Positions 1 through 60,347 of a stretch of 64,000 nt of DNA are shown here, in pieces. Each line of letters begins with the position of its first letter. Position 1 is the stretch's first letter. This DNA comes from Muricea muricata (lineage: Eukaryota; Cnidaria; Anthozoa; Malacalcyonacea; Plexauridae), in assembly GCA_963855995.1 (NCBI GenBank), contig OY979718.1, forward strand, positions 40,607,559 to 40,671,558, in the 5' to 3' direction. The position numbers were made by a program, and so were the translations under genes. The notes beneath the pieces are model-generated. The model worked only from the letters and a program-made list of their open reading frames with translations. It was not told where the DNA came from and ran no database searches.

Positions 1-251
1 CTTTATTAAGATTGTACATTGTCGAGGAAGCGGTTTTGAGTTGTTATCAGCATTGCTGTGTTTGGCAGCTGTATGCCATGATTCTAGACTTTCTAGTGTT
101 AGGCGACTACGGAAATTCCCTGTGTCAATGATTTTCGCGTTGCACGTTTTTCGATGTTTGAACCATTATTATGTTCCTTAACGTTTCTGATGTGTTCAGC
201 CTTTCTTGTTTCCAGAGATCTGCCTGTTTCCCCTAAGTACAGGCAGATATT
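1..251 (-). pseudogene. Penelope-like GIY-YIG remnant, copy cut by the window edge
   Basis: Same fragment as at 3176-3566, starting in the window inside its C-terminal tail. The GIY-YIG run is 251-102 on the minus strand and the shifted tail frame is 105-1. The sequence agrees with the other copies, including the frame break at about 103. Confidence 0.7.
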
Positions 252-276
252 TTAAAAGAAGAAAAGCAAATGATCA

Positions 277-458
277 CGCATGGCAATAGTGCCTACCTGG
301 TCGTAATTCAACCACAATTAGTGCAACAGCAAAGCATGACGTATATAAATACAAATCGGTGATACTATAGTACGACCGATTTGTATTTATATACGTCATG
401 CTTTGCTGTTGCACTGATTGTGGTTGAATTACGACCAGGTAGGCACTATTGCCATGCG
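277..458. repeat. Near-perfect palindrome, 84-bp arms, at the D-A border
   Basis: Arms are 277-360 and 375-458 with a 14-bp spacer. I find one mismatch between the arms in this copy (AAT against GAT). Transcribed or extruded, it would form a very long hairpin. The right arm continues directly into module A, and the matching part of B (from about 2075) has only a right-arm equivalent. The left arm may therefore be a local inverted duplication of the start of A. One copy is present per D-A junction, 16 in all. Several units carry arm changes without compensation in the partner arm, for example CCTAATT in units 3, 5, 9-11 and 13-16. That argues against selection to keep the hairpin. A 98-codon frame spans the palindrome and is best explained by it. 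Confidence 0.9.
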
Positions 459-1088: not shown

Positions 1089-1124
1089 AGTGGTAACTAA
1101 CATAGAAAGTGGTAACTAACATAG
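1087..1124 (+). repeat. 19-bp tandem duplication at the start of module C
   Basis: AAAGTGGTAACTAACATAG occurs twice without spacer (1087-1105, 1106-1124). The second copy leads directly into the A-box-like TAGTCCAGTGG at 1122-1132. The pair is present in every C module I checked, including those of the extra C-B pairs, so it is a fixed feature of the unit. Confidence 0.85.
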
Positions 1125-1185
1125 TCCAGTGGTAAAGACCATGTGTATCCCTTCAGAGTCAATCACTGAGTCCGGGAGCAATACC
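1115..1185 (+). other. tRNA-like segment 1 (A-box-like, degenerate B box)
   Basis: TAGTCCAGTGG at 1122-1132 fits the Pol III A-box pattern TRGYNNARNNG exactly. Downstream, GAGTCAATCAC near 1156-1166 sits at about the expected distance for a B box but fits GWTCRANNC poorly, with roughly one base missing. It looks like the decayed head of a tRNA-derived SINE, and I do not call it a functional tRNA. Confidence 0.4.
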
Positions 1186-1287
1186 TACCTTTGATAAAAA
1201 TCGTTCTGGATTTCGTCAGTTTCAAGAATTAAGCATAGGCTAGAAGAACGTATAGACAACTTCAACCAACTTGCCGAAGCCGCATAA

Positions 1288-1356
1288 CCAACGTAATGCA
1301 GTGGTCAAATACAAATTACCCTACAAAAGTGGGTAGGATCAATTCCTGCCCTTGCC
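1288..1356 (+). other. tRNA-like segment 2 (A and B boxes, T-arm-like stem)
   Basis: The B box GATCAATTC at 1337-1345 fits GWTCRANNC exactly. It sits in the 7-nt loop of a stem in which GGGTAGG pairs with CCTGCCC. An A-box-like TAATGCAGTGG at 1294-1304 has one mismatch to TRGYNNARNNG and lies 43 bp upstream, the spacing seen in real tRNAs. No full cloverleaf with paired acceptor ends is evident, so a tRNA-derived SINE remnant is more likely than a tRNA gene. It is repeated in each C module. Confidence 0.5.
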
Positions 1357-1365
1357 ATGCATTAA

Positions 1366-1735
1366 ATAGTTTTCGTCTTGTGTAAGAATTAATAACCCTT
1401 TCCAAAGTATCTTTTCGTCTATTTTGCAAATTTTTTTAGAAAAAAATTCGTCACAATTTGACAATTACTTCTTTTCATCATACAGTCTGATAAAGAAAAA
1501 TTTTTATTTCCTTGTTAACCGCACTGGCAAAATTTTTGGTAAATGGAGAAAATAAAAGTTCTAAAAAACCATCGAAAAAAATTGAGCAGAAAACCGTGCT
1601 CAAAATGCTATAGTTTTTCTTAACGGTGGGAGCCATCTTTTTTGGCGAAAAAACCCCAGATAAATAATTGAAAAGAATTACGCTCTACCACTTACATTAG
1701 GGCTATTGAAAAGCGTCATAAGAGATTGTACGCCG
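1366..1735. other. AT-rich part of module C, no gene seen
   Basis: Rich in short A and T runs, with no long open frame, no tRNA-like boxes and no recognisable domain. The A-run near 1437-1448 varies by one base between copies. That explains some of the 1-bp length differences between units. Confidence 0.7.
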
Positions 1736-1740
1736 GCCAG

Positions 1741-2034
1741 CGTAATCAATTTAAATTAAAAGGTTCCAAAAGGTGTCAGGAATTCTGCTACCTTCGAAGG
1801 ATTAGCCTTGGAAATGTATAACGATGGTAAAAAGGACCGGGGTATTGTAATAAAAGTTTGCACACGGATGGCGCGCACGGGTGGCTTCGCACAATTGGCC
1901 TCGACAACCCACCAAATGCCGTTGCCTTTCGACAACGACATCGCATTGACTGCCTCAACCGTCTTGTATCACAACTCCACCACCTCTGGTTCGAAATATA
2001 GGGGAGGGTAGAAGCGGCCCCCAGACCGTAAGTG
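1741..2034. other. GC-richer conserved block of module C, origin unknown
   Basis: This ~290 bp block is less AT-rich than its surroundings and nearly unchanged in all 20 copies in the window. It is open on both strands: 1814-2011 (+, from an ATG) and 1968-1756 (-, with an ATG at 1941-1939 and a TGA just upstream). The minus frame has a tryptophan pair (GIWWVVEAN) and reads more like protein than the plus frame, but I recognise no family. A splice-donor-like GTAAGT lies at 2029-2034 on the + strand. It could be a captured exon fragment or piece of another mobile element, and nothing here shows that it is translated. Confidence 0.5.
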
Positions 2035-2067
2035 CTAAAACCCTGTATCTTCGAATCAGACCATCAA

Positions 2068-2779
2068 GATATAGTATCACCGATTTGTATATATATACCT
2101 CATGCTCTGCTGTTGCAGTGATTGTGGTTGAATTACGACCGGGTAGACACTATTGCCATGCGCACATGCATCTATATATAGGCTGCTGTTATTAACGTGC
2201 TGTATAAGTTTTATCATATCAAAATATAATTTGCGTGGTCATTTATGCAATCAGCGAAAAACATTTCCATTTATTTAATACTTATCGTGTCTGTAGTGCC
2301 TCAGCAATAAAATTGTTCTTCGACATTGAGATTTAAATAGTGATCTGTTTAGTTCAATGATATATATTGAACGTCATATAGCTGGGTCATTAAATTTGGA
2401 AATGTATGTTTGATCAGAATTTACATGGTCTTCTCCGAGTATAAGAGAAGGCTGATTTCAACACACATTTATCTTTCAAATGTTCTACTTACAAAAATAT
2501 GGGATTTTAAAATTCGTAGCACCAGAAACCTACTGTATGCTCAAGTTGTGATCTTACCCATTTTTGTTATTGTGATATTGCAAAAGACTCAATTGGATTT
2601 ATTTAGAAATAAATTTGTGCATATAAATGTAATTACACTCAAAAGCAACTTCAAGGTCTTCCTCGACAGAGTATGATTAAATATTATTCGATGAAATGCG
2701 AACAAAAGCTCGCGAATGGCTTCGAATAACTTTGATTTAATCTAGCGTGTATATTTATAATAATTCTTACCCCAGACAA
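2068..2779. repeat. Module B (reference copy), paralogue of module A
   Basis: Diverged second copy of A within the unit. It lacks the left palindrome arm and is usually followed by D (TATATTTATA, then CCCCAGACAAAA). B copies come in two forms at one site, TATGATT and TATGGATT, which sets unit length at 3315 or 3316 bp. A second marker, TTAATACTT against TTAACACTT, tracks recombination history. No gene recognised. Confidence 0.85.
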
Positions 2780-2804
2780 AAACCTATGGGGTTTGTGACA
2801 AGGG

Positions 2805-2870
2805 CAATTAGGTTTGACCAAAAACTCGTTGACTTGAGACATTTTGCATTGGCCACTAGACTATGTATGT
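2805..2870 (-). other. tRNA-like segment 3, minus strand (A and B boxes at tRNA spacing)
   Basis: On the minus strand TAGTCTAGTGG (2863-2853) fits TRGYNNARNNG exactly and resembles the 5' part of glutamate-type tRNAs. GGTCAAACC (2819-2811) matches the B-box pattern apart from one base. The start-to-start distance is 44 bp, as in tRNA genes. I do not see a convincing acceptor stem. Best call is the promoter head of a tRNA-derived SINE lying opposite to segments 1 and 2. One copy per D module. Confidence 0.5.
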
Positions 2871-2954
2871 TTGCTATCACGCGCTTGCCACTTAAATTGT
2901 TTAAGCGGGCTTTTCTCTAGCCTATAATTAATTCTAAAACAAGAAAAGAATTCA

Positions 2955-3025
2955 GAGCAAGGGAATTATCGTTCAGCTGCGTTGTTTATTTACCGCCACA
3001 TTGCCTTACCACCAGACCGCGAGGG
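2955..3025 (-). other. Possible tRNA-like segment 4, minus strand, degenerate
   Basis: On the minus strand CGGTCTGGTGG (3019-3009) is two mismatches from an A box, and GATAATTCC (2970-2962) is two from a B box, 49 bp apart. Taken alone this is weak. It is listed because three better examples share the unit. The stretch from 3026 to about 3175 shows nothing else that I can name. Confidence 0.22.
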
Positions 3026-3175
3026 CTATTACACTCGCCCTATTTTACCCGTTTTTCACTGAATGAGCTTTAAGAAACGGTTAAACAATATAAACCACTA
3101 AAAATCGTAGATGTGTCAATTAGACATAAATGAAAAGGGTGAGACGTTCTCTGACTAAAATATATTTATTTGTTT

Positions 3176-3566
3176 ACGAGCTTTCGGCCACCAGTCTGTA
3201 GCCTTCAACGGGTATATTTATAATGATTGCAGTAAACTGTGAAAGTGTGAAATGAAGCTAGATATGACGTGTATACATGTGCACTGTGAAATACGATAAG
3301 GTGATACTATGTTTTCTTTATTAAGATTGTACATTGTCGAGGAAGCGGTTTTGAGTTGTTATCAGCATTGCTGTGTTTGGCAGCTGTATGCCATGATTCT
3401 AGACTTTCTAGTGTTAGGCGACTACGGAAATTCCCTGTGTCAATGATTTTCGCGTTGCACGTTTTTCGATGTTTGAACCATTATTATGTTCCTTAACGTT
3501 TCTGATGTGTTCAGCCTTTCTTGTTTCCAGAGATCTGCCTGTTTCCCCTAAGTACAGGCAGATATT
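3176..3566 (-). pseudogene. Penelope-like element 3' fragment with GIY-YIG endonuclease remnant (reference copy)
   Basis: On the minus strand, 3566-3417 reads 50 codons that look like the second half of a Penelope-like GIY-YIG domain. The run YLGETGRSLETR is followed by EH eight bases-triplets later at AEHIRNVKEH, the usual spacing of YIG-x-T-x-R and the EH helix in that family. A frame change near 3418 then leads into a second open run (3420-3310) with LESLESWHTAAKHSN, resembling the C-terminal tail of these proteins, ending in TAG at 3309-3307. At about 3209-3176 the minus strand has TGAAGGCT and GCCGAAAGCT, similar to a motif I recall trailing Penelope-like coding regions. A TAA lies just upstream of the first run, so the RT domain and the N-terminal GIY part are missing. 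It is a frameshifted, 5'-truncated fossil, repeated in every unit (positions given under each unit). The family call rests on remembered motifs, not on a search. Confidence 0.72.
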
Positions 3567-6500
3567 TTAAAAGAAGAAAAGCAAATGATCACGCATGGCA
3601 ATAGTGCCTACCTGGTCGTAATTCAACCACAATTAGTGCAACAGCAAAGCATGACGTATATAAATACAAATCGGTGATACTATAGTACGACCGATTTGTA
3701 TTTATATACGTCATGCTTTGCTGTTGCACTGATTGTGGTTGAATTACGACCAGGTAGGCACTATTGCCATGCGCACATGCATCTATATATAGGCTGCTGT
3801 TATTAACGTGCTGTGTAAGTTTTATCATAAACATCAAAATATAATTTGCGTGGTCATTTATGCAATCAGCGAAACACATTTCCATTTATTTAATACCTAT
3901 CGTCTCTGTAGTGCTCCAGCAATAATGTTGTTCTTCGAAATTAGATTTAAATAGTGATCTGCTTTGTTCAATGATATATATATTGGACGCCTATAGCTAG
4001 GTCATTATATTTGGAAAAGTATGTTTGATCAGAATTTACAAGGTCTTCTCCGAGTATAAGAGAAGGCTGATTTCAACACACATTTATTTTTCAAATGTTT
4101 TATTACTCACAAAAACATAGGCTTTTAAAATTCGTAGCACCAGAAACCTACTATATGCTCAAGTTTTGACCTTACCCATTTTTGTTATTTGTGATATTGC
4201 AAAAGACTCAATTGGATTTATTTAGAAATAAATTTGTACATAATTTAAAAACGTAATTACACTCAAAAGCAACTTCAAGGTCTTCCTCGACAGAGTATGA
4301 TTAAATATTATTCGATGAAATGCGAACAAAAGCTCGCGAATGGCTTCGAATAACTTTGATTTAATCTAGCGTGTATATCTATAATAATTCTTAACCCAGT
4401 CAAAGTGGTAACTAACATAGAAAGTGGTAACTAACATAGTCCAGTGGTAAAGACCATGTGTATCCCTTCAGAGTCAATCACTGAGTCCGGGAGCAATACC
4501 TACCTTTGATAAAAATCGTTCTGGATTTCGTCAGTTTCAAGAATTAAGCATAGGCTAGAAGAACGTATAGACAACTTCAACCAACTTGCCGAAGCCGCAT
4601 AACCAACGTAATGCAGTGGTCAAATACAAATGACCCTACAAAAGTGGGTAGGATCAATTCCTGCCCTTGCCATGCATTAAATAGTTTTCGTCTTGTGTAA
4701 GAATTAATAACCCTTTCCAAAGTATCTTTTCGTCTATTTTGCAAATTTTTTTAGAAAAAAAATTCGTCACAATTTGACAATTACTTCTTTTCATCATACA
4801 GTCTGATAAAGAAAAATTTTTATTTCCTTGTTAACCGCACTGACAAAATTTTTGGTAAATGGAGAAAATAAAAGTTCTAAAAAACCATCGAAAAAAATTG
4901 AGCAGAAAACCGTGCTCAAAATGCTATAGTTTTTCTTAACGGTGGGAGCCATCTTTTTTGGCGAAAAAACCCCAGATAAATAATTGAAAAGAATTACGCT
5001 CTACCACTTACATTAGGGCTATTGAAAAGCGTCATAAGAGATTGTACGCCGGCCAGCGTAATCAATTTAAATTAAAAGGTTCCAAAAGGTGTCAGGAATT
5101 CTGCTACCTTCGAAGGATTAGCCTTGGAAATGTATAACGATGGTAAAAAGGACCGGGGTATTGTAATAAAAGTTTGCACACGGATGGCGCGCACGGGTGG
5201 CTTCGCACAATTGGCCTCGACAACCCACCAAATGCCGTTGCCTTTCGACAACGACATCGAATTGACTGCCTCAACCGTCTTGTATCACAACTCCACCACC
5301 TCTGGTTCGAAATATAGGGGAGGGTAGAAGCGGCCCCCAGACCGTAAGTGCTAAAACCCTGTATCTTCGAATCAGACCATCAAGATATAGTATCACCGAT
5401 TTGTATAAATATACCTCATGCTCTGCTGTTGCAGTGATTGTGGTTGAATTACGACCGGGTAGACACTATTGCCATGCGCACATGCATCTATATATAGGCT
5501 GCTGTTATTAACGTGCTGTATAAGTTTTATCATATCAAAATATAATTTGCGTGGTCATTTATGCAATCAGCGAAAAACATTTCCATTTATTTAACACTTA
5601 TCGTGTCTGTAGTGCCTCAGCAATAAAATTGTTCTTCGACATTGAGATTTAAATAGTGATCTGTTTAGTTCAATGATATATATTGAACGTCATATAGCTG
5701 GGTCATTAAATTTGGAAATGTATGTTTGATCAGAATTTACATGGTCTTCTCCGAGTATAAGAGAAGGCTGATTTCAACACACATTTATCTTTCAAATGTT
5801 CTACTTACAAAAATATGGGATTTTAAAATTCGTAGCACCAGAAACCTACTGTATGCTCAAGTTGTGATCTTACCCATTTTTGTTATTGTGATATTGCAAA
5901 AGACTCAATTGGATTTATTTAGAAATAAATTTGTGCATATAAATGTAATTACACTCAAAAGCAACTTCAAGGTCTTCCTCGACAGAGTATGATTAAATAT
6001 TATTCGATGAAATGCGAACAAAAGCTCGCGAATGGCTTCGAATAACTTTGATTTAATCTAGCGTGTATATCTATAATAATTCTTAACCCAGTCAAAGTGG
6101 TAACTAACATAGAAAGTGGTAACTAACATAGTCCAGTGGTAAAGACCATGTGTATCCCTTCAGAGTCAATCACTGAGTCCGGGAGCAATACCTACCTTTG
6201 ATAAAAATCGTTCTGGATTTCGTCAGTTTCAAGAATTAAGCATAGGCTAGAAGAACGTATAGACAACTTCAACCAACTTGCCGAAGCCGCATAACCAACG
6301 TAATGCAGTGGTCAAATACAAATTACCCTACAAAAGTGGGTAGGATCAATTCCTGCCCTTGCCATGCATTAAATAGTTTTCGTCTTGTGTAAGAATTAAT
6401 AACCCTTTCCAAAGTATCTTTTCGTCTATTTTGCAAATTTTTTTAGAAAAAAATTCGTCACAATTTGACAATTACTTCTTTTCATCATACAGTCTGATAA

Positions 6501-14512: not shown

Positions 14513-15420
14513 AGCAGCTGGGAAATTTGTCAGCCGCTGTGCAAAAATATTGTTGGCGGCTGAGCACAAAATGTAATTAGCATATTATTTGCGAAATACA
14601 GATTGGTTTCAGAGGTGCTCGGAATTTAGTTTCTTTGACGAGCCAGTTACAATTTTGTTCACAATTTTTCATTGATTTCAGTAAAGGATTGATATAGCTG
14701 TCAGTTAATCATATTTTGAAGTGATGACATCGTCTGTTGAAGCAAATTTCCAAACTTTGACATGTGAGTGGGTTGCCAAGAATTAAGCGTGATGTTGAAT
14801 TTACGTTTGACTTAATACTGAAAAATTTAGCTTTTGCTCCAAAAAGATATTTGTTTCCTGTTACTTCCAATCTGTTTATGTTCCTTTCGAAACCAATTTT
14901 TTTGTTTTATAAATTCCGCTCATGGCCAATAATTTGTTGTGAAAATCGCTACCGGAAAAGTACTTTAAATAACGGTTGTTGTTGAAATGGTCGTGAAAGT
15001 GATAAAACATCCACAATCACGTGGGCTGTCAGTGCAATGATGTCTTTGATACTTTATAAATGTTTTCGTACAAATGGTAAAGATATTTTTCAGTTGACTA
15101 ATGTGTTTAGTCGATCGATTTCAGTAACATTTTTGTATTGTTGTTCGAGTACGAGCGTTGACTAGTTTGAGTCGAATTTTAAAAAATCAGCCTTTTGCTC
15201 CAACATGATTTTAGCTGGGACTTGGCCTTCATGTTTATATCTACTCACCTGATTTGTTAGCGTGCTCTTAAAAATTACGCTAAAAGGTCGTTTAGTCCAC
15301 TGAAAATGCTTGTGATCCATGTTTGTTATATGATTTTTAAATATCACGCGTAAATCACGCAATTTCCACGCGTTCACGCAGGCTTATCTGGCGCATGCTC
15401 AGACAAATTTCCCAGCTGCT
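14513..15420. mobile_element. 908-bp non-autonomous DNA transposon with 19-bp TIRs
   Basis: Perfect 19-bp terminal inverted repeats AGCAGCTGGGAAATTTGTC at 14513-14531 and its complement at 15402-15420. It is flanked by TGTATGTTT at 14504-14512 and 15421-15429. The other D modules contain a single TGTATGTTT and serve as empty sites. The extra length of unit 4 (917 bp) equals element plus one target copy. Open frames inside are at most ~73 codons and match no transposase, so it needs a helper in trans. A 9-bp duplication suggests a Mutator-like (or Merlin-like) helper; hAT and P families usually give 8 bp. The superfamily is therefore uncertain. It lies about 10 bp upstream of the A box of tRNA-like segment 3. 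Confidence 0.9.
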
Positions 15421-19187: not shown

Positions 19188-22100
19188 CTTTATTAAGATT
19201 GTACATTGTCGAGGAAGCGGTTTTGAGTTGTTATCAGCATTGCTGTGTTTGGCAGCTGTATGCCATGATTCTAGACTTTCTAGTGTTAGGCGACTACGGA
19301 AATTCCCTGTGTCAATGATTTTCGCGTTGCACGTTTTTCGATGTTTGAACCATTATTATGTTCCTTAACGTTTCTGATGTGTTCAGCCTTTCTTGTTTCC
19401 AGAGATCTGCCTGTTTCCCCTAAGTACAGGCAGATATTTTAAAAGAAGAAAAGCAAATGATCACGCATGGCAATAGTGCCTACCTGGTCGTAATTCAACC
19501 ACAATTAGTGCAACAGCAAAGCATGACGTATATAAATACAAATCGGTGATACTATAGTACGACCGATTTGTATTTATATACGTCATGCTTTGCTGTTGCA
19601 CTGATTGTGGTTGAATTACGACCAGGTAGGCACTATTGCCATGCGCACATGCATCTATATATAGGCTGCTGTTATTAACGTGCTGTGTAAGTTTTATCAT
19701 AAACATCAAAATATAATTTGCGTGGTCATTTATGCAATCAGCGAAACACATTTCCATTTATTTAATACCTATCGTCTCTGTAGTGCTCCAGCAATAATGT
19801 TGTTCTTCGAAATTAGATTTAAATAGTGATCTGCTTTGTTCAATGATATATATATTGGACGCCTATAGCTAGGTCATTATATTTGGAAAAGTATGTTTGA
19901 TCAGAATTTACAAGGTCTTCTCCGAGTATAAGAGAAGGCTGATTTCAACACACATTTATTTTTCAAATGTTTTATTACTCACAAAAATATAGGCTTTTAA
20001 AATTCGTAGCACCAGAAACCTACTATATGCTCAAGTTTTGACCTTACCCATTTTTGTTATTTGTGATATTGCAAAAGACTCAATTGGATTTATTTAGAAA
20101 TAAATTTGTACATAATTTAAAAACGTAATTACACTCAAAAGCAACTTCAAGGTCTTCCTCGACAGAGTATGATTAAATATTATTCGATGAAATGCGAACA
20201 AAAGCTCGCGAATGGCTTCGAATAACTTTGATTTAATCTAGCGTGTATATCTATAATAATTCTTAACCCAGTCAAAGTGGTAACTAACATAGAAAGTGGT
20301 AACTAACATAGTCCAGTGGTAAAGACCATGTGTATCCCTTCAGAGTCAATCACTGAGTCCGGGAGCAATACCTACCTTTGATAAAAATCGTTCTGGATTT
20401 CGTCAGTTTCAAGAATTAAGCATAGGCTAGAAGAACGTATAGACAACTTCAACCAACTTGCCGAAGCCGCATAACCAACGTAATGCAGTGGTCAAATACA
20501 AATGACCCTACAAAAGTGGGTAGGATCAATTCCTGCCCTTGCCATGCATTAAATAGTTTTCGTCTTGTGTAAGAATTAATAACCCTTTCCAAAGTATCTT
20601 TTCGTCTATTTTGCAAATTTTTTTAGAAAAAAATTCGTCACAATTTGACAATTACTTCTTTTCATCATACAGTCTGATAAAGAAAAATTTTTATTTCCTT
20701 GTTAACCGCACTGGCAAAATTTTTGGTAAATGGAGGAAATAAAAGTTCTAAAAAACCATCGAAAAAAATTGAGCAGAAAACCGTGCTCAAAATGCTATAG
20801 TTTTTCTTAACGGTGGGAGCTATCTTTTTTGGCGAAAAAACCCCAGATAAATAATTGAAAAGAATTACGCTCTACCACTTACATTAGGGCTATTGAAAAG
20901 CGTCATAAGAGATTGTACGCCGGCCAGCGTAATCAATTTAAATTAAAAGGTTCCAAAAGGTGTCAGGAATTCTGCTACCTTCGAAGGATTAGCCTTGGAA
21001 ATGTATAACGATGGTAAAAAGGACCGGGGCATTGTAATAAAAGTTTGCACACGGATGGCGCGCACGGGTGGCTTCGCACAATTGGCCTCGACAACCCACC
21101 AAATGCCGTTGCCTTTCGACAACGACATCGAATTGACTGCCTCAACCGTCTTGTATCACAACTCCACCACCTCTGGTTCGAAATATAGGGGAGGGTAGAA
21201 GCGGGCCCCAGACCGTGAGTGCTAAAACCCTGTGTCTTCGAATCAGACCATCAAGATATAGTATCACCGATTTGTATATATATACCTCATGCTCTGCTGT
21301 TGCAGTGATTGTGGTTGAATTACGACCGGGTAGACACTATTGCCATGCGCACATGCATCTATATATAGGCTGCTGTTATTAACGTGCTGTATAAGTTTTA
21401 TCATATCAAAATATAATTTGCGTGGTCATTTATGCAATCAGCGAAAAACATTTCCATTTATTTAATACTTATCGTGTCTGTAGTGCCTCAGCAATAAAAT
21501 TGTTCTTCGACATTGAGATTTAAATAGTGATCTGTTTAGTTCAATGATATATATTGAACGTCATATAGCTGGGTCATTAAATTTGGAAATGTATGTTTGA
21601 TCAGAATTTACATGGTCTTCTCCGAGTATAAGAGAAGGCTGATTTCAACACACATTTATCTTTCAAATGTTCTACTTACAAAAATATGGGATTTTAAAAT
21701 TCGTAGCACCAGAAACCTACTGTATGCTCAAGTTGTGATCTTACCCATTTTTGTTATTGTGATATTGCAAAAGACTCAATTGGATTTATTTAGAAATAAT
21801 TTTGTGCATATAAATGTAATTACACTCAAAAGCAACTTCAAGGTCTTCCTCGACAGAGTATGATTAAATATTATTCGATGAAATGCGAACAAAAGCTCGC
21901 GAATGGCTTCGAATAACTTTGATTTAATCTAGCGTGTATATTTATAATAATTCTTACCCCAGACAAAAACCTATGGGGTTTGTGACAAGGGCAATTAGGT
22001 TTGACCAAAAACTCGTTGACTTGAGACATTTTGCATTGGCCACTAGACTATGTATGTTTGCTATCACGCGCTTGCCACTTAAATTGTTTAAGCGGGCTTT

Positions 22101-33800: not shown

Positions 33801-34141
33801 AGCTGCGTTGTTTATTTACCACCACATTGCCTTACCACCAGACCGCGAGGGCTATTACACTCGCCCTATTTTACCCGTTTTTCACTGAATGAGCTTTAAG
33901 AAACGGTTAAACAATATAAACCACTAAAAATCGTAGATGTGTCAATTAGACATAAATGAAAAGGGTGAGACGTTCTCTGACTAAAATATATTTATTTGTT
34001 TACGAGCTTTCGGCCACCAGTCTGTAGCCTTCAACGGGTATATTTATAATGATTGCAGTAAACTGTGAAAGTGTGAAATGAAGCTAGATATGACGTGTAT
34101 ACATGTGCACTGTGAAATACGATAAGGTGATACTATGTTTT
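30826..34141. repeat. Array unit 9 (3316 bp)
   Basis: Standard unit. Penelope fragment 30927-31076, palindrome 31102-31283. Carries a rare set: ATTACTCG near 31817, AACCCTTGC near 32417, GTGTGAGG near 32599, CCCCGTATC near 32866, AATATAATT near 33450 and TACCACCAC near 33818. The same set occurs in unit 13. Confidence 0.94.
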
Positions 34142-40771: not shown

Positions 40772-43700
40772 CTTTATTAAGATTGTACATTGTCGAGGAA
40801 GCGGTTTTGAGTTGTTATCAGCATTGCTGTGTTTGGCAGCTGTATGCCATGATTCTAGACTTTCTAGTGTTAGGCGACTACGGAAATTCCCTGTGTCAAT
40901 GATTTTCGCGTTGCACGTTTTTCGATGTTTGAACCATTATTATGTTCCTTAACGTTTCTGATGTGTTCAGCCTTTCTTGTTTCCAGAGATCTGCCTGTTT
41001 CCCCTAAGTACAGGCTGATATTTTAAAAGAAGAAAAGCAAATGATCACGCATGGCAATAGTGCCTACCTGGTCGTAATTCAACCACAATTAGTGCAACAG
41101 CAAAGCATGACGTATATAAATATAAATCGGTGATACTATAGTACGACCGATTTGTATTTATATACGTCATGCTTTGCTGTTGCACTGATTGTGGTTGAAT
41201 TACGACCAGGTAGGCACTATTGCCATGCGCACATGCATCTATATATAGGCTGCTGTTATTAACGTGCTGTGTAAGTTTTATCATAAACATCAAAATATAA
41301 TTTGCGTGGTCATTTATGCAATCAGCGAAACACATTTCCATTTATTTAATACCTATCGTCTCTGTAGTGCTCCAGCAATAATGTTGTTCTTCGAAATTAG
41401 ATTTAAATAGTGATCTGCTTTGTTCAATGATATATATATTGGACGCCTATAGCTAGGTCATTATATTTGGAAAAGTATGTTTGATCAGAATTTACAAGGT
41501 CTTCTCCGAGTATAAGAGAAGGCTGATTTCAACACACATTTATTTTTCAAATGTTTTATTACTCACAAAAATATAGGCTTTTAAAATTCGTAGCACCAGA
41601 AACCTACTATATGCTCAAGTTTTGACCTTACCCATTTTTGTTATTTGTGATATTGCAAAAGACTCAATTGGATTTATTTAGAAATAAATTTGTACATAAT
41701 TTAAAAACGTAATTACACTCAAAAGTAACTTCAAGGTCTTCCTCGACAGAGTATGATTAAATATTATTCGATGAAATGCGAACAAAAGCTCGCGAATGGC
41801 TTCGAATAACTTTGATTTAATCTAGCGTGTATATCTATAATAATTCTTAACCCAGTCAAAGTGGTAACTAACATAGAAAGTGGTAACTAACATAGTCCAG
41901 TGGTAAAGACCATGTGTATCCCTTCAGAGTCAATCACTGAGTCCGGGAGCAATACCTACCTTTGATAAAAATCGTTCTGGATTTCGTCAGTTTCAAGAAT
42001 TAAGCATAGGCTAGAAGAACGTATAGACAACTTCAACCAACTTGCCGAAGCCGCATAACCAACGTAATGCAGTGGTCAAATACAAATTACCCTACAAAAG
42101 TGGGTAGGATCAATTCCTGCCCTTGCCATGCATTAAATAGTTTTCGTCTTGTGTAAGAATTAATAACCCTTTCCAAAGTATCTTTTCGTCTATTTTGCAA
42201 ATTTTTTTAGAAAAAAATTCGTCACAATTTGACAATTACTTCTTTTCATCATACAGTCTGATAAAGAAAAATTTTTATTTCCTTGTTAACCGCACTCGCA
42301 AAATTTTTGGTAAATGGAGAAAATAAAAGTTCTAAAAAACCATCGAAAAAAATTGAGCAGAAAACCGTGCTCAAAATGCTATAGTTTTTCTTAACGGTGG
42401 GAGCCATCTTTTTTGGCGAAAAAACCCCAGATAAATAATTGAAAAGAATTACGCTCTACCACTTACATTAGGGCTATTGAAAAGCGTCATAAGAGATTGT
42501 ACGCCGGCCAGCGTAATCAATTTAAATTAAAAGGTTCCAAAAGGTGTCAGGAATTCTGCTACCTTCGAAGGATTAGCCTTGGAAATGTATAACGATGGTA
42601 AAAAGGACCGGGGTATTGTAATAAAAGTTTGCACACGGATGGCGCGCACGGGTGGCTTCGCACAATTGGCCTCGACAACCCACCAAATGCCGTTGCCTTT
42701 CGACAACGACATCGAATTGACTGCCTCAACCGTCTTGTATCACAACTCCACCACCTCTGGTTCGAAATATAGGGGAGGGTAGAAGCGGCCCCCAGACCGT
42801 AAGTGCTAAAACCCTGTATCTTCGAATCAGACCATCAAGATATAGTATCACCGATTTGTATATATATACCTCATGCTCTGCTGTTGCAGTGATTGTGGTT
42901 GAATTACGACCGGGTAGACACTATTGCCATGCGCACATGCATCTATATATAGGCTGCTGTTATTAACGTGCTGTATAAGTTTTATCATATCAAAATATAA
43001 TTTGCGTGGTCATTTATGCAATCAGCGAAAAACATTTCCATTTATTTAACACTTATCGTGTCTGTAGTGCCTCAGCAATAAAATTGTTCTTCGACATTGA
43101 GATTTAAATAGTGATCTGTTTAGTTCAATGATATATATTGAACGTCATATAGCTGGGTCATTAAATTTGGAAATGTATGTTTGATCAGAATTTACATGGT
43201 CTTCTCCGAGTATAAGAGAAGGCTGATTTCAACACACATTTATCTTTCAAATGTTCTACTTACAAAAATATGGGATTTTAAAATTCGTAGCACCAGAAAC
43301 CTACTGTATGCTCAAGTTGTGATCTTACCCATTTTTGTTATTGTGATATTGCAAAAGACTCAATTGGATTTATTTAGAAATAAATTTGTGCATATAAATG
43401 TAATTACACTCAAAAGCAACTTCAAGGTCTTCCTCGACAGAGTATGATTAAATATTATTCGATGAAATGCGAACAAAAGCTCGCGAATGGCTTCGAATAA
43501 CTTTGATTTAATCTAGCGTGTATATCTATAATAATTCTTAACCCAGTCAAAGTGGTAACTAACATAGAAAGTGGTAACTAACATAGTCCAGTGGTAAAGA
43601 CCATGTGTATCCCTTCAGAGTCAATCACTGAGTCCGGGAGCAATACCTACCTTTGATAAAAATCGTTCTGGATTTCGTCAGTTTCAAGAATTAAGCATAG

Positions 43701-45778
43701 GCTAGAAGAACGTATAGACAACTTCAACCAACTTGCCGAAGCCGCATAACCAACGTAATGCAGTGGTCAAATACAAATTACCCTACAAAAGTGGGTAGGA
43801 TCAATTCCTGCCCTTGCCATGCATTAAATAGTTTTCGTCTTGTGTAAGAATTAATAACCCTTTCCAAAGTATCTTTTCGTCTATTTTGCAAATTTTTTTA
43901 GAAAAAAATTCGTCACAATTTGACAATTACTTCTTTTCATCATACAGTCTGATAAAGAAAAATTTTTATTTCCTTGTTAACCGCACTGGCAAAATTTTTG
44001 GTAAATGGAGAAAATAAAAGTTCTAAAAAACCATCGAAAAAAATTGAGCAGAAAACCGTGCTCAAAATGCTATAGTTTTTCTTAACGGTGGGAGCCATCT
44101 TTTTTGGCGAAAAAACCCCAGATAAATAATTGAAAAGAATTACGCTCTACCACTTACATTAGGGCTATTGAAAAGCGTCATAAGAGATTGTACGCCGGCC
44201 AGCGTAATCAATTTAAATTAAAAGGTTCCAAAAGGTGTCAGGAATTCTGCTACCTTCGAAGGATTAGCCTTGGAAATGTATAACGATGGTAAAAAGGACC
44301 GGGGTATTGTAATAAAAGTTTGCACACGGATGGCGCGCACGGGTGGCTTCGCACAATTGGCCTCGACAACCCACCAAATGCCGTTGCCTTTCGACAACGA
44401 CATCGCATTGACTGCCTCAACCGTCTTGTATCACAACTCCACCACCTCTGGTTCGAAATATAGGGGAGGGTAGAAGCGGCCCCCAGACCGTAAGTGCTAA
44501 AACCCTGTATCTTCGAAACAGACCATCAAGATATAGTATCACCGATTTGTATATATATACCTCATGCTCTGCTGTTGCAGTGATTGTGGTTGAATTACGA
44601 CCGGGTAGACACTATTGCCATGCGCACATGCATCTATATATAGGCTGCTGTTATTAACGTGCTGTATAAGTTTTATCATATCAAAATATAATTTGCGTGG
44701 TCATTTATGCAATCAGCGAAAAACATTTCCATTTATTTAATACTTATCGTGTCTGTAGTGCCTCAGCAATAAAATTGTTCTTCGACATTGAGATTTAAAT
44801 AGTGATCTGTTTAGTTCAATGATATATATTGAACGTCATATAGCTGGGTCATTAAATTTGGAAATGTATGTTTGATCAGAATTTACATGGTCTTCTCCGA
44901 GTATAAGAGAAGGCTGATTTCAACACACATTTATCTTTCAAATGTTCTACTTACAAAAATATGGGATTTTAAAATTCGTAGCACCAGAAACCTACTGTAT
45001 GCTCAAGTTGTGATCTTACCCATTTTTGTTATTGTGATATTGCAAAAGACTCAATTGGATTTATTTAGAAATAAATTTGTGCATATAAATGTAATTACAC
45101 TCAAAAGCAACTTCAAGGTCTTCCTCGACAGAGTATGGATTAAATATTATTCGATGAAATGCGAACAAAAGCTCGCGAATGGCTTCGAATAACTTTGATT
45201 TAATCTAGCGTGTATATTTATAATAATTCTTACCCCAGACAAAAACCTATGGGGTTTGTGACAAGGGCAATTAGGTTTGACCAAAAACTCGTTGACTTGA
45301 GACATTTTGCATTGGCCACTAGACTATGTATGTTTGCTATCACGCGCTTGCCACTTAAATTGTTTAAGCGGGCTTTTCTCTAGCCTATAATTAATTCTAA
45401 AACAAGAAAAGAATTCAGAGCAAGGGAATTATCGTTCAGCTGCGTTGTTTATTTACCGCCACATTGCCTTACCACCAGACCGCGAGGGCTATTACACTCG
45501 CCCTATTTTACCCGTTTTTCACTGAATGAGCTTTAAGAAACGGTTAAACAATATAAACCACTAAAAATCGTAGATGTGTCAATTAGACATAAATGAAAAG
45601 GGTGAGACGTTCTCTGACTAAAATATATTTATTTGTTTACGAGCTTTCGGCCACCAGTCTGTAGCCTTCAACGGGTATATTTATAATGATTGCAGTAAAC
45701 TGTGAAAGTGTGAAATGAAGCTAGATATGACGTGTATACATGTGCACTGTGAAATACGATAAGGTGATACTATGTTTT
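40772..45778. repeat. Array unit 12 (5007 bp, D-A-C-B-C-B)
   Basis: Long unit. The first B starts near 42839 and the second near 44530. Penelope fragment 40873-41022 with a private GGCTGATA change close by, palindrome 41048-41229. The first part shares variants with units 6 and 7, the second part with unit 8, so the copy is a mosaic. Confidence 0.94.
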
Positions 45779-48700
45779 CTTTATTAAGATTGTACATTGT
45801 CGAGGAAGCGGTTTTGAGTTGTTATCAGCATTGCTGTGTTTGGCAGCTGTATGCCATGATTCTAGACTTTCTAGTGTTAGGCGACTACGGAAATTCCCTG
45901 TGTCAATGATTTTCGCGTTGCACGTTTTTCGATGTTTGAACCATTATTATGTTCCTTAACGTTTCTGATGTGTTCAGCCTTTCTTGTTTCCAGAGATCTG
46001 CCTGTTTCCCCTAAGTACAGGCAGATATTTTAAAAGAAGAAAAGCAAATGATCACGCATGGCAATAGTGCCTACCTGGTCCTAATTCAACCACAATTAGT
46101 GCAACAGCAAAGCATGACGTATATAAATACAAATCGGTGATACTATAGTACGACCGATTTGTATTTATATACGTCATGCTTTGCTGTTGCACTGATTGTG
46201 GTTGAATTACGACCAGGTAGGCACTATTGCCATGCGCACATGCATCTATATATAGGCTGCTGTTATTAACGTGCTGTGTAAGTTTTATCATAAACATCAA
46301 AATATAATTTGCGTGGTCATTTATGCAATCAGCGAAACACGTTTCCATTTATTTAATACCTATCGTCTCTGTAGTGCTCCAGCAATAATGTTGTTCTTCG
46401 AAATTAGATTTAAATAGTGATCTGCTTTGTTCAATGATATATATATTGGACGCCTATAGCTAGGTCATTATATTTGGAAAAGTATGTTTGATCAGAATTT
46501 ACAAGGTCTTCTCCGAGTATAAGAGAAGGCTGATTTCAACACACATTTATTTTTCAAATGTTTTATTACTCACAAAAACATAGGCTTTTAAAATTCGTAG
46601 CACCAGAAACCTACTATATGCTCAAGTTTTGACCTTACCCATTTTTGTTATTTGTGATATTGCAAAAGACTCAATTGGATTTATTTAGAAATAAATTTGT
46701 ACATAATTTAAAAACGTAATTACACTCAAAAGCAACTTCAAGGTCTTCCTCGACAGAGTATGATTAAATATTACTCGATGAAATGCGAACAAAAGCTCGC
46801 GAATGGCTTCGAATAACTTTGATTTAATCTAGCGTGTATATCTATAATAATTCTTAACCCAGTCAAAGTGGTAACTAACATAGAAAGTGGTAACTAACAT
46901 AGTCCAGTGGTAAAGACCATGTGTATCCCTTCAGAGTCAATCACTGAGTCCGGGAGCAATACCTACCTTTGATAAAAATCGTTCTGGATTTCGTCAGTTT
47001 CAAGAATTAAGCATAGGCTAGAAGAACGTATAGACAACTTCAACCAACTTGCCGAAGCCGCATAACCAACGTAATGCAGTGGTCAAATACAAATTACCCT
47101 ACAAAAGTGGGTAGGATCAATTCCTGCCCTTGCCATGCATTAAATAGTTTTCGTCTTGTGTAAGAATTAATAACCCTTTCCAAAGTATCTTTTCGTCTAT
47201 TTTGCAAATTTTTTTAGAAAAAAATTCGTCACAATTTGACAATTACTTCTTTTCATCATACAGTCTGATAAAGAAAAATTTTTATTTCCTTGTTAACCGC
47301 ACTGGCAAAATTTTTGGTAAATGGAGAAAATAAAAGTTCTAAAAAACCATCGAAAAAAATTGAGCAGAAACCCTTGCTCAAAATGCTATAGTTTTTCTTA
47401 ACGGTGGGAGCCATCTTTTTTGGCGAAAAAACCCCAGATAAATAATTGAAAAGAATTACGCTCTACCACTTACATTAGGGCTATTGAAAAGCGTCATAAG
47501 AGATTGTACGCCGGCCAGCGTAATCAATTTAAATTAAAAGGTTCCAAAAGGTGTGAGGAATTCTGCTACCTTCGAAGGATTAGCCTTGGAAATGTATAAC
47601 GATGGTAAAAAGGACCGGGGTATTGTAATAAAAGTTTGCACACGGATGGCGCGCACGGGTGGCTTCGCACAATTGGCCTCGACAACCCACCAAATGCCGT
47701 TGCCTTTCGACAACGACATCGAATTGACTGCCTCAACCGTCTTGTATCACAACTCCACCACCTCTGGTTCGAAATATAGGGGAGGGTAGAAGCGGCCCCC
47801 AGACCGTAAGTGCTAAAACCCCGTATCTTCGAAACAGACCATCAAGATATAGTATCACCGATTTGTATATATATACCTCATGCTCTGCTGTTGCAGTGAT
47901 TGTGGTTGAATTACGACCGGGTAGACACTATTGCCATGCGCACATGCATCTATATATAGGCTGCTGTTATTAACGTGCTGTATAAGTTTTATCATATCAA
48001 AATATAATTTGCGTGGTCATTTATGCAATCAGCGAAAAACATTTCCATTTATTTAATACTTATCGTGTCTGTAGTGCCTCAGCAATAAAATTGTTCTTCG
48101 ACATTGAGATTTAAATAGTGATCTGTTTAGTTCAATGATATATATTGAACGTCATATAGCTGGGTCATTAAATTTGGAAATGTATGTTTGATCAGAATTT
48201 ACATGGTCTTCTCCGAGTATAAGAGAAGGCTGATTTCAACACACATTTATCTTTCAAATGTTCTACTTACAAAAATATGGGATTTTAAAATTCGTAGCAC
48301 CAGAAACCTACTGTATGCTCAAGTTGTGATCTTACCCATTTTTGTTATTGTGATATTGCAAAAGACTCAATTGGATTTATTTAGAAATAAATTTGTGCAT
48401 ATAAATATAATTACACTCAAAAGCAACTTCAAGGTCTTCCTCGACAGAGTATGGATTAAATATTATTCGATGAAATGCGAACAAAAGCTCGCGAATGGCT
48501 TCGAATAACTTTGATTTAATCTAGCGTGTATATTTATAATAATTCTTACCCCAGACAAAAACCTATGGGGTTTGTGACAAGGGCAATTAGGTTTGACCAA
48601 AAACTCGTTGACTTGAGACATTTTGCATTGGCCACTAGACTATGTATGTTTGCTATCACGCGCTTGCCACTTAAATTGTTTAAGCGGGCTTTTCTCTAGC

Positions 48701-49094
48701 CTATAATTAATTCTAAAACAAGAAAAGAATTCAGAGCAAGGGAATTATCGTTCAGCTGCGTTGTTTATTTACCACCACATTGCCTTACCACCAGACCGCG
48801 AGGGCTATTACACTCGCCCTATTTTACCCGTTTTTCACTGAATGAGCTTTAAGAAACGGTTAAACAATATAAACCACTAAAAATCGTAGATGTGTCAATT
48901 AGACATAAATGAAAAGGGTGAGACGTTCTCTGACTAAAATATATTTATTTGTTTACGAGCTTTCGGCCACCAGTCTGTAGCCTTCAACGGGTATATTTAT
49001 AATGATTGCAGTAAACTGTGAAAGTGTGAAATGAAGCTAGATATGACGTGTATACATGTGCACTGTGAAATACGATAAGGTGATACTATGTTTT
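45779..49094. repeat. Array unit 13 (3316 bp)
   Basis: Standard unit that repeats the rare variants of unit 9 one for one, including ATTACTCG near 46770 and TACCACCAC near 48771. Penelope fragment 45880-46029, palindrome 46055-46236. Confidence 0.94.
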
Positions 49095-52000
49095 CTTTAT
49101 TAAGATTGTACATTGTCGAGGAAGCGGTTTTGAGTTGTTATCAGCATTGCTGTGTTTGGCAGCTGTATGCCATGATTCTAGACTTTCTAGTGTTAGGCGA
49201 CTACGGAAATTCCCTGTGTCAATGATTTTCGCGTTGCACGTTTTTCGATGTTTGAACCATTATTATGTTCCTTAACGTTTCTGATGTGTTCAGCCTTTCT
49301 TGTTTCCAGAGATCTGCCTGTTTCCCCTAAGTACAGGCAGATATTTTAAAAGAAGAAAAGCAAATGATCACGCATGGCAATAGTGCCTACCTGGTCCTAA
49401 TTCAACCACAATTAGTGCAACAGCAAAGCATGACGTATATAAATACAAATCGGTGATACTATAGTACGACCGATTTGTATTTATATACGTCATGCTTTGC
49501 TGTTGCACTGATTGTGGTTGAATTACGACCAGGTAGGCACTATTGCCATGCGCACATGCATCTATATATAGGCTGCTGTTATTAACGTGCTGTGTAAGTT
49601 TTATCATAAACATCAAAATATAATTTGCGTGGTCATTTATGCAATCAGCGAAACACGTTTCCATTTATTTAATACCTATCGTCTCTGTAGTGCTCCAGCA
49701 ATAATGTTGTTCTTCGAAATTAGATTTAAATAGTGATCTGCTTTGTTCAATGATATATATATTGGACGCCTATAGCTAGGTCATTATATTTGGAAAAGTA
49801 TGTTTGATCAGAATTTACAAGGTCTTCTCCGAGTATAAGAGAAGGCTGATTTCAACACACATTTATTTTTCAAATGTTTTATTACTCACAAAAACATAGG
49901 CTTTTAAAATTCGTAGCACCAGAAACCTACTATATGCTCAAGTTTTGACCTTACCCATTTTTGTTATTTGTGATATTGCAAAAGACTCAATTGGATTTAT
50001 TTAGAAATAAATTTGTACATAATTTAAAAACGTAATTACACTCAAAAGCAACTTCAAGGTCTTCCTCGACAGAGTATGATTAAATATTATTCGATGAAAT
50101 GCGAACAAAAGCTCGCGAATGGCTTCGAATAACTTTGATTTAATCTAGCGTGTATATCTATAATAATTCTTAACCCAGTCAAAGTGGTAACTAACATAGA
50201 AAGTGGTAACTAACATAGTCCAGTGGTAAAGACCATGTGTATCCCTTCAGAGTCAATCACTGAGTCCGGGAGCAATACCTACCTTTGATAAAAATCGTTC
50301 TGGATTTCGTCAGTTTCAAGAATTAAGCATAGGCTAGAAGAACGTATAGACAACTTCAACCAACTTGCCGAAGCCGCATAACCAACGTAATGCAGTGGTC
50401 AAATACAAAGTACCCTACAAAAGTGGGTAGGATCAATTCCTGCCCTTGCCATGCATTAAATAGTTTTCGTCTTGTGTAAGAATTAATAACCCTTTCCAAA
50501 GTATCTTTTCGTCTATTTTGCAAATTTTTTCAGAAAAAAATTCGTCACAATTTGACAATTACTTCTTTTCATCATACAGTCTGATAAAGAAAAATTTTTA
50601 TTTCCTTGTTAACCGCACTGGCAAAATTTTTGGTAAATGGAGAAAATAAAAGTTCTAAAAAACCATCGAAAAAAATTGAGCAGAAAACCGTGCTCAAAAT
50701 GCTATAGTTTTTCTTAACGGTGGGAGCCATCTTTTTTGGCGAAAAAACCCCAGATAAATAATTGAAAAGAATTACGCTCTACCACTTACATTAGGGCTAT
50801 TGAAAAGCGTCATAAGAGATTGTACGCCGGCCAGCGTAATCAATTTAAATTAAAAGGTTCCAAAAGGTGTCAGGAATTCTGCTACCTTCGAAGGATTAGC
50901 CTTGGAAATGTATAACGATGGTAAAAAGGACCGGGGTATTGTAATAAAAGTTTGCACACGGATGGCGCGCACGGGTGGCTTCGCACAATTGGCCTCGACA
51001 ACCCACCAAATGCCGTTGCCTTTCGACAACGACATCGAATTGACTGCCTCAACCGTCTTGTATCACAACTCCACCACCTCTGGTTCGAAATATAGGGGAG
51101 GGTAGAAGCGGCCCCCAGACCGTAAGTGCTAAAACCCTGTATCTTCGAATCAGACCATCAAGATATAGTATCACCGATTTGTATATATATACCTCATGCT
51201 CTGCTGTTGCAGTGATTGTGGTTGAATTACGACCGGGTAGACACTATTGCCATGCGCACATGCATCTATATATAGGCTGCTGTTATTAACGTGCTGTATA
51301 AGTTTTATCATATCAAAATATAATTTGCGTGGTCATTTATGCAATCAGCGAAAAACATTTCCATTTATTTAACACTTATCGTGTCTGTAGTGCCTCAGCA
51401 ATAAAATTGTTCTTCGACATTGAGATTTAAATAGTGATCTGTTTAGTTCAATGATATATATTGAACGTCATATAGCTGGGTCATTAAATTTGGAAATGTA
51501 TGTTTGATCAGAATTTACATGGTCTTCTCCGAGTATAAGAGAAGGCTGATTTCAACACACATTTATCTTTCAAATGTTCTACTTACAAAAATATGGGATT
51601 TTAAAATTCGTAGCACCAGAAACCTACTGTATGCTCAAGTTGTGATCTTACCCATTTTTGTTATTGTGATATTGCAAAAGACTCAATTGGATTTATTTAG
51701 AAATAAATTTGTGCATATAAATGTAATTACACTCAAAAGCAACTTCAAGGTCTTCCTCGACAGAGTATGATTAAATATTATTCGATGAAATGCGAACAAA
51801 AGCTCGCGAATGGCTTCGAATAACTTTGATTTAATCTAGCGTGTATATCTATAATAATTCTTAACCCAGTCAAAGTGGTAACTAACATAGAAAGTGGTAA
51901 CTAACATAGTCCAGTGGTAAAGACCATGTGTATCCCTTCAGAGTCAATCACTGAGTCCGGGAGCAATACCTACCTTTGATAAAAATCGTTCTGGATTTCG

Positions 52001-57100: not shown

Positions 57101-57417
57101 CATTGCCTTACCACCAGACCGCGAGGGCTATTACACTCGCCCTATTTTACCCGTTTTTCACTGAATGAGCTTTAAGAAACGGTTAAACAATATAAACCAC
57201 TAAAAATCGTAGATGTGTCAATTAGACATAAATGAAAAGGGTGAGACGTTCTCTGACTAAAATATATTTATTTGTTTACGAGCTTTCGGCCACCAGTCTG
57301 TAGCCTTCAACGGGTATATTTATAATGATTGCAGTAAACTGTGAAAGTGTGAAATGAAGCTAGATATGACGTGTATACATGTGCACTGTGAAATACGATA
57401 AGGTGATACTATGTTTT
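54102..57417. repeat. Array unit 15 (3316 bp)
   Basis: Standard unit. Penelope fragment 54203-54352, palindrome 54378-54559. Shares AACCCTTGC, GTGTGAGG, CCCCGTATC and AATATAATT with units 9 and 13, but lacks their ATTACTCG and TACCACCAC. This is a partial match, consistent with conversion or mosaic exchange. Confidence 0.94.
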
Positions 57418-60347
57418 CTTTATTAAGATTGTACATTGTCGAGGAAGAGGTTTTGAGTTGTTATCAGCATTGCTGTGTTTGGCAGCTGTATGCCATGATT
57501 CTAGACTTTCTAGTGTTAGGCGACTACGGAAATTCCCTGTGTCAATGATTTTCGCGTTGCACGTTTTTCGATGTTTGAACCATTATTATGTTCCTTAACG
57601 TTTCTGATGTGTTCAGCCTTTCTTGTTTCCAGAGATCTGCCTGTTTCCCCTAAGTACAGGCAGATATTTTAAAAGAAGAAAAGCAAATGATCACGCATGG
57701 CAATAGTGCCTACCTGGTCCTAATTCAACCACAATTAGTGCAACAGCAAAGCATGACGTATATAAATACAAATCGGTGATACTATAGTACGACCGATTTG
57801 TATTTATATACGTCATGCTTTGCTGTTGCACTGATTGTGGTTGAATTACGACCAGGTAGGCACTATTGCCATGCGCACATGCATCTATATATAGGCTGCT
57901 GTTATTAACGTGCTGTGTAAGTTTTATCATAAACATCAAAATATAATTTGCGTGGTCATTTATGCAATCAGCGAAACACGTTTCCATTTATTTAATACCT
58001 ATCGTCTCTGTAGTGCTCCAGCAATAATGTTGTTCTTCGAAATTAGATTTAAATAGTGATCTGCTTTGTTCAATGATATATATATTGGACGCCTATAGCT
58101 AGGTCATTATATTTGGAAAAGTATGTTTGATCAGAATTTACAAGGTCTTCTCCGAGTATAAGAGAAGGCTGATTTCAACACACATTTATTTTTCAAATGT
58201 TTTATTACTCACAAAAACATAGGCTTTTAAAATTCGTAGCACCAGAAACCTACTATATGCTCAAGTTTTGACCTTACCCATTTTTGTTATTTGTGATATT
58301 GCAAAAGACTCAATTGGATTTATTTAGAAATAAATTTGTACATAATTTAAAAACGTAATTACACTCAAAAGCAACTTCAAGGTCTTCCTCGACAGAGTAT
58401 GATTAAATATTATTCGATGAAATGCGAACAAAAGCTCGCGAATGGCTTCGAATAACTTTGATTTAATCTAGCGTGTATATCTATAATAATTCTTAACCCA
58501 TTCAAAGTGGTAACTAACATAGAAAGTGGTAACTAACATAGTCCAGTGGTAAAGACCATGTGTATCCCTTCAGAGTCAATCACTGAGTCCGGGAGCAATA
58601 CCTACCTTTGATAAAAATCGTTCTGGATTTCGTCAGTTTCAAGAATTAAGCATAGGCTAGAAGAACGTATAGACAACTTCAACCAACTTGCCGAAGCCGC
58701 ATAACCAACGTAATGCAGTGGTCAAATACAAATTACCCTACAAAAGTGGGTAGGATCAATTCCTGCCCTTGCCATGCATTAAATAGTTTTCGTCTTGTGT
58801 AAGAATTAATAACCCTTTCCAAAGTATCTTTTCGTCTATTTTGCAAATTTTTTTAGAAAAAAATTCGTCACAATTTGACAATTACTTCTTTTCATCATAC
58901 AGTCTGATAAAGAAAAATTTTTATTTCCTTGTTAACCGCACTGGCAAAATTTTTGGTAAATGGAGAAAATAAAAGTTCTAAAAAACCATCGAAAAAAATT
59001 GAGCAGAAACCCTTGCTCAAAATGCTATAGTTTTTCTTAACGGTGGGAGCCATCTTTTTTGGCGAAAAAACCCCAGATAAATAATTGAAAAGAATTACGC
59101 TCTACCACTTACATTAGGGCTATTGAAAAGCGTCATAAGAGATTGTACGCCGGCCAGCGTAATCAATTTAAATTAAAAGGTTCCAAAAGGTGTCAGGAAT
59201 TCTGCTACCTTCGAAGGATTAGCCTTGGAAATGTATAACGATGGTAAAAAGGACCGGGGTATTGTAATAAAAGTTTGCACACGGATGGCGCGCACGGGTG
59301 GCTTCGCACAATTGGCCTCGACAACCCACCAAATGCCGTTGCCTTTCGACAACGACATCGAATTGACTGCCTCAACCGTCTTGTATCACAACTCCACCAC
59401 CTCTGGTTCGAAATATAGGGGAGGGTAGAAGCGGCCCCCAGACCGTAAGTGCTAAAACCCTGTATCTTCGAAACAGACCATCAAGATATAGTATCACCGA
59501 TTTGTATATATATACCTCATGCTCTGCTGTTGCAGTGATTGTGGTTGAATTACGACCGGGTAGACACTATTGCCATGCGCACATGCATCTATATATAGGC
59601 TGCTGTTATTAACGTGCTGTATAAGTTTTATCATATCAAAATATAATTTGCGTGGTCATTTATGCAATCAGCGAAAAACATTTCCATTTATTTAATACTT
59701 ATCGTGTCTGTAGTGCCTCAGCAATAAAATTGTTCTTCGACATTGAGATTTAAATAGTGATCTGTTTAGTTCAATGATATATATTGAACGTCATATAGCT
59801 GGGTCATTAAATTTGGAAATGTATGTTTGATCAGAATTTACATGGTCTTCTCCGAGTATAAGAGAAGGCTGATTTCAACACACATTTATCTTTCAAATGT
59901 TCTACTTACAAAAATATGGGATTTTAAAATTCGTAGCACCAGAAACCTACTGTATGCTCAAGTTGTGATCTTACCCATTTTTGTTATTGTGATATTGCAA
60001 AAGACTCAATTGGATTTATTTAGAAATAAATTTGTGCATATAAATGTAATTACACTCAAAAGCAACTTCAAGGTCTTCCTCGACAGAGTATGGATTAAAT
60101 ATTATTCGATGAAATGCGAACAAAAGCTCGCGAATGGCTTCGAATAACTTTGATTTAATCTAGCGTGTATATTTATAATAATTCTTACCCCAGACAAAAA
60201 CCTATGGGGTTTGTGACAAGGGCAATTAGGTTTGACCAAAAACTCGTTGACTTGAGACATTTTGCATTGGCCACTAGACTATGTATGTTTGCTATCACGC
60301 GCTTGCCACTTAAATTGTTTAAGCGGGCTTTTCTCTAGCCTATAATT
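57418..60347. repeat. Array unit 16 (partial, cut by the DIRS element)
   Basis: D-A-C-B, then D only as far as TATAATT at 60341-60347. Intact D modules continue with AATTCTAAAAC; here the DIRS terminus follows instead. Penelope fragment 57519-57668, palindrome 57694-57875. Private changes GAGGAAGAGG near 57440 and CCCATTCAAAG near 58498. Confidence 0.94.

Follow-up and report, generated by a model that had tools for sequence, protein, structure and literature searches.

A tandem array of 3.3-kb composite units in Muricea muricata, probably a macrosatellite derived from transposon-laden DNA

Most of the 64,000-nucleotide stretch of Muricea muricata DNA analysed here (contig OY979718.1; hereafter the window) consists of a repeat whose unit is itself a patchwork. 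This raises the question of what kind of repeat it is: a satellite, a domain preserved for its use, a transposon that happens to stand in tandem, or an error of assembly. Our analysis indicates that it is quite probably a composite (macro)satellite, derived from captured transposon-laden DNA that was amplified in tandem and homogenised by unequal recombination.

1 to 60347, unstranded: tandem array of 16 units (the last one cut) and four 1.69-kb H-B half-units, with both ends open

The units of this array lie head to tail with a basic length of 3315 or 3316 bp, and the two most frequent spacings of 25-mer self-matches are 3316 (19,008) and 3315 (13,320). We tiled the array with six blocks, P, L, A, H, B and C, all taken from the first unit as reference, and the tiling of positions 1-60347 leaves no gap of more than 15 bp apart from one 908-bp insert. 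Block P starts 16 times. Ten of the 15 spacings between these starts are 3315 or 3316 bp, four are 5007 or 5008 bp because they include a half-unit, and one is 4233 bp because it includes the insert. Block H occurs 20 times, 16 times within units and four times within half-units. Overall divergence between full copies is about 0.28%. The mean number of pairwise differences is 6.8 over 2231 columns for H+B+C (15 of 20 copies, omitting four short copies and the cut copy, and with the 908-bp insert removed from one copy) and 2.58 over 1086 columns for P+L+A (16 copies). A six-frame search of the whole unit gives no Pfam match above cut-off. Near-identical, non-coding units arranged head to tail, with a monomer longer than 500 bp, are what defines satellite DNA and, within it, a macrosatellite. 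The 25-mer spacings, the six-block tiling and the low divergence therefore bear out the preliminary description of a tandem array of about 60 kb with at least 16 near-identical copies of a unit of about 3.3 kb.

The left end of the array is the edge of the window. At the right, the final unit ends after 151 of the 537 bp of block C, and two insertions, one at this position and one further to the left, are each present in one unit only.

60344 to 64000, minus strand: DIRS-type retrotransposon with a reverse transcriptase ORF and a tyrosine recombinase ORF, extending past the end of the window
14513 to 15420, unstranded: 908-bp element bounded by perfect terminal inverted repeats of 19 bp and flanked by a target duplication of 9 bp

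In the first of these elements, inverted repeats of 87 bp occupy 60344-60430 and 60597-60683, and the unit shares their first 4 bp. Its 728-aa minus-strand frame matches RVT_1 (E=1.7e-15) and, below the cut-off, RT_RNaseH (E=2.2e-4), and its 427-aa frame, the region with the tyrosine recombinase match, matches Phage_integrase (E=6.4e-12). Matches to reverse transcriptase, to RNase H at sub-threshold strength and to tyrosine recombinase are present together with inverted repeats, as in DIRS elements. The element cuts into block C of the last unit, and in each of the 15 other units C runs on past this point (14 of them intact, one split by the 908-bp insert). Therefore, position 60347, which had been given as the end of the array, is not its natural end; it reads as an interruption in mid-unit where the DIRS element begins. 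The 908-bp element, judging from the length of its target duplication, could presumably be a non-autonomous Mutator-like element.

The first unit, which served as the reference, is made up as follows.

1 to 276, minus strand: block P, a GIY-YIG-like coding remnant with a frame at 102-251 (Pfam GIY_YIG_2, E=0.042, below cut-off)
277 to 458, unstranded: palindrome of two 91-bp arms (277-367 and 368-458), 97% complementary, without spacer
367 to 1086, unstranded: core A, sharing 92.1% identity with core B across 726 bp
1087 to 2066, unstranded: block H, 980 bp, with e1 and e2 at its start; 27 variable sites among 20 copies, the most of any block
2067 to 2778, unstranded: core B, a paralog of core A, about 0.7 kb
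2779 to 3315, unstranded: block C, 537 bp, comprising e5, the head of e4 and what is presumably the Penelope 3' region
1100 to 1260, plus strand: SINE-like segment e1, from pairwise local alignment
1280 to 1420, plus strand: SINE-like segment e2, from pairwise local alignment
2740 to 2890, minus strand: SINE-like segment e4, from pairwise local alignment
2900 to 3060, minus strand: SINE-like segment e5, from pairwise local alignment

The four SINE-like segments form one family. All six pairs among e1, e2, e4 and e5 are related, with local alignment scores of 42-61 where shuffled sequences average 22-25 (p 0.003-0.007); with 300 shuffles the floor of p is 0.003, and these values are optimistic since the segments were picked after looking. 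On the opposite strand the pairs score 17-31. For e1/e4 the shuffle maximum (49) exceeds the real score (47). The head that the segments have in common contains GTGG, and their body has the motifs CCTTTG/CCCTTG and AGAATTA, so that several related copies with a common head and body are present, as in tRNA-derived SINEs. The body of e4 enters the end of core B, and positions 2758-2783 pair with the body of e2. We regard the four segments as putative true SINEs.

A tRNA origin of their heads is not independently supported. The unit contains nine A/B-box pairs against a shuffle mean of 3.5 and a shuffle maximum of 13 (60 shuffles), which is no excess over shuffles; e5 has no A/B-box pair at the listed thresholds; and neither ARAGORN nor Rfam finds a tRNA. 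Of the candidates for the proposed tRNA-like Pol III heads, four of five thus group into one family by alignment, and their likeness to tRNAs is not borne out by box counts or tRNA searches. The fifth candidate, e3 (minus strand, 1720-1560), was rejected as unrelated (p 0.89, 0.92, 0.29 and 0.047 against e1, e2, e4 and e5, respectively, and p 0.53 against the end of core A). At its end, core A also matches e4, with a score of 70. We dropped this match as a sign of a common SINE body because it overlaps the paralogy of A and B and hence is not independent evidence. Compared with e1 and e2, the end of core A gives no significant score (p 0.12 and 0.40), and compared with e5 it gives p 0.043; with e1, the higher score came from the opposite strand (38 versus 30).

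A second type of mobile element is suggested by the minus-strand frame of block P. This frame contains the motif GETGRSLETR, which we take to be typical of the GIY-YIG domains of Penelope-like elements, and the Penelope 3' end presumably reaches back to about 3110-3315, as judged by eye. The frame is not listed in the six-frame Pfam scan of the whole unit, its best match among PDB sequences has an E of 0.81, and those matches are exonucleases. Stretches that fit its peptide pattern number 39 in viral contigs and 249 in prokaryote contigs, none of them confirmed by tblastn. The six frames of the unit give no reverse transcriptase match, so the remnant is at most a truncated fragment and is not filed as an element; likewise, the unit has no match to a simple hammerhead ribozyme pattern or to a hammerhead in Rfam. 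The fragment in block P is probably, though not provably, that of a truncated Penelope-like element. The inverted Penelope-like 3' fragment described earlier is seen as a frame and stays weak as a domain call; should this call not hold up, the unit would be left with a single demonstrated transposon family.

These assignments do not extend to about 0.67 kb of H (about 1400-2066) or to most of both cores. The conserved block that had been called unidentified proves to consist mostly of two SINE-like segments on the minus strand, together with what is presumably the Penelope 3' end. As for the larger claim, that the unit was assembled from fragments of several mobile elements and amplified whole, a mosaic with SINE-like pieces that was amplified as a whole is upheld, and the Penelope part is its weak point. 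At the start of H, positions 1087-1124 are a perfect 19-bp tandem duplication in all 20 H blocks.

The long palindrome noted earlier is confirmed: its left arm repeats the start of core A in inverted orientation and is joined to it. Both parts, the left arm and core A, occur in all 16 units. When folded as RNA, positions 270-465 give a predicted energy of -161 kcal/mol (z -26). Rfam searches of the window give no gathering-level match to a structured RNA (5S, snRNA, tRNA). The microRNA-family matches that they do return are to the palindrome, all of them below gathering scores, and in our judgement such matches are to be expected of any long hairpin.

The blocks differ in how much they vary between copies. 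The observed (expected) numbers of variable sites are 27 (14.3) for H, 2 (7.2) for C, 6 (9.8) for B, 7 (9.8) for A, 2 (3.8) for P and 2 (1.2) for L, the count for B leaving out three recombinant sites. This unevenness over the six blocks has a p of 0.002 if the sites are independent, which they are not. Without the half-units, H still has 21 variable sites. Block C, with its two sites in 537 bp, has the lowest density of the blocks (3.7 per kb). The excess in H and the deficit in C, which weigh against the composite-satellite explanation, could reflect either selection on C or conversion that imports variants from outside into H. The H-B copy at 20274-21965 has six private variants, more than any other copy, which is compatible with its conversion from a diverged copy that lies beyond the array.

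Another explanation is that the array is a functional satellite domain: it would serve as a centromere, or its palindrome would be transcribed into long hairpin RNA as a source for small-RNA silencing, and this use would preserve the array. The presence of the left arm and core A in every unit, the strong fold predicted for the palindrome as RNA, the low variation of C and the Pol III promoters that the SINE-like heads may carry all speak for this explanation. Nevertheless, we consider it unlikely. The microRNA-family matches stay below gathering scores, the variation of block P is not exceptionally low (7.2 variable sites per kb, compared with 8.9 for B and 9.7 for A), and the arms are not strictly kept: at site 303 of the left arm, seven units have G and nine have C, and the C breaks the pair with position 432. 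Slightly less probable still is a version in which the palindrome and the SINE promoters, themselves transposon debris, were recruited into a centromere or hairpin small-RNA locus, with C under selection and H drifting.

Cores A and B, whose 92.1% identity bears out the A/B pair noted earlier, are direct repeats that flank H and thereby superficially resemble long terminal repeats. Such an arrangement could suggest that the unit is one large composite transposon, mobile as a unit, which stands in tandem here by chance. However, the blocks abut in regular order throughout the array, and matches to transposases, integrases and reverse transcriptases are absent from the unit. An identification of A and B as long terminal repeats was rejected, since TG...CA ends of the cores are absent by eye. 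We therefore hold a composite transposon to be improbable, a little more so than either form of a functional domain.

The composite satellite that we prefer is also supported by traces of recombination within the array.

4402 to 6093, unstranded: H-B half-unit whose end is recombinant, switching from B to A; three more begin at 26904, 41858 and 50181
27787 to 35577, unstranded: exact repeat of 7,791 bp, identical to 42740-50530 at an offset of 14,953 bp

In all four half-units, core B gives way to A-specific bases inside one and the same 126-bp stretch in which A and B are identical. This single switch stretch indicates that A and B have undergone unequal homologous recombination. The variant 1193C is present in all four half-units, and among the other 16 copies two have it (Fisher p 0.003, for a site picked after the table had been seen). 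We favour the explanation that the half-units go back to one recombinant that later spread; recurrence inside the 126-bp stretch is a less likely alternative. The 7,791-bp repeat is the only exact ungapped repeat of at least 3,000 bp among those listed, and it indicates that blocks of several units get copied. This exact copy could also be a repeated assembly path, but an assembly artefact, with copies collapsed or falsely expanded, is the least probable explanation of all, given that units have their own variants, that there are four recombinant half-units, and that the 908-bp insertion with its target duplication is specific to one unit.

Variants are also mixed among copies. The four-gamete test fails for 16 of 91 site pairs, and neighbouring copies are no more similar than distant ones (p 0.43). 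Together these results indicate that variants have been reshuffled, and the lack of likeness between neighbours indicates that more than local unequal crossing over has been at work. The internal higher-order structure that had been reported thus exists in the sense that there is structure above the level of the unit. It consists of A/B recombinant half-units of one type and a duplication spaced at about 15 kb, and not of a strict higher-order repeat.

The origin of the array as a composite satellite may be pictured as follows. A stretch of DNA would have gathered four segments from a single SINE-like family, lying in both orientations, and a probable truncated Penelope-like fragment, and it would also have had a duplicated core of about 0.7 kb with a fold-back palindrome. 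Captured as a unit of 3.3 kb, this stretch would then have multiplied in tandem, and unequal homologous recombination would have spread and homogenised the copies. In this scheme, we infer the order of the insertions and the origin of the first tandem duplication. The site of the array would be heterochromatic, and the array would persist through recombination and not through an encoded function. If this is true, the array is a worked example of a recently proposed route by which degraded transposon loci are recycled into satellite DNA, and the presence of recognisable pieces, a readable recombinant junction and an exact multi-unit copy in one array would allow the steps in the birth and spread of a satellite to be ordered.

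Composite units in tandem are known from other systems. Those of the human T2T composite elements are reportedly tandemly arrayed. For satellite DNA, Satovic-Vuksic, Majcen and Plohl (2025; PMC12628747) put forward, in a review, the hypothesis that composite monomers derive from "TE graveyards" and contain multiple short segments resembling various transposons. This hypothesis predicts the kind of anatomy seen here, palindromes included: both systems combine transposon-resembling stretches, inverted repeats, palindromes and tandem amplification (PMC12628747). With regard to stretches resembling various transposons, the unit holds one SINE-like family in four segments and a second, Penelope-like type that amounts to a sub-threshold Pfam match. 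The array differs from the satellites described there in its 3.3-kb unit, in having four segments of one SINE-like family, in a second transposon type that is only probable, and in a recombination junction that can be read (PMC12628747). Tandem composite repeats are also reported from ape sex chromosomes (PMC11168930), and the likeness there is one of arrangement, composite units in tandem. Macrosatellites (PMC12692304) have monomers of more than 500 bp and possibly a composite structure; the array resembles them in both respects, a likeness of size class. Penelope-like elements can themselves form tandems or partial tandems that have pseudo-LTRs (PMC11167929). The array resembles these in having a probable Penelope fragment inside a tandem repeat and is unlike them in that its unit has neither a reverse transcriptase match nor a hammerhead pattern. 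Given the published composite monomers and tandem composite repeats (PMC12628747, PMC11168930), the rarity first ascribed to a satellite this mixed was overstated. The array does not seem to represent a new category; it resembles a type of satellite DNA that was described not long ago, of which it would be a large and clear instance, and it probably adds a large, well-resolved case to the composite satellites.
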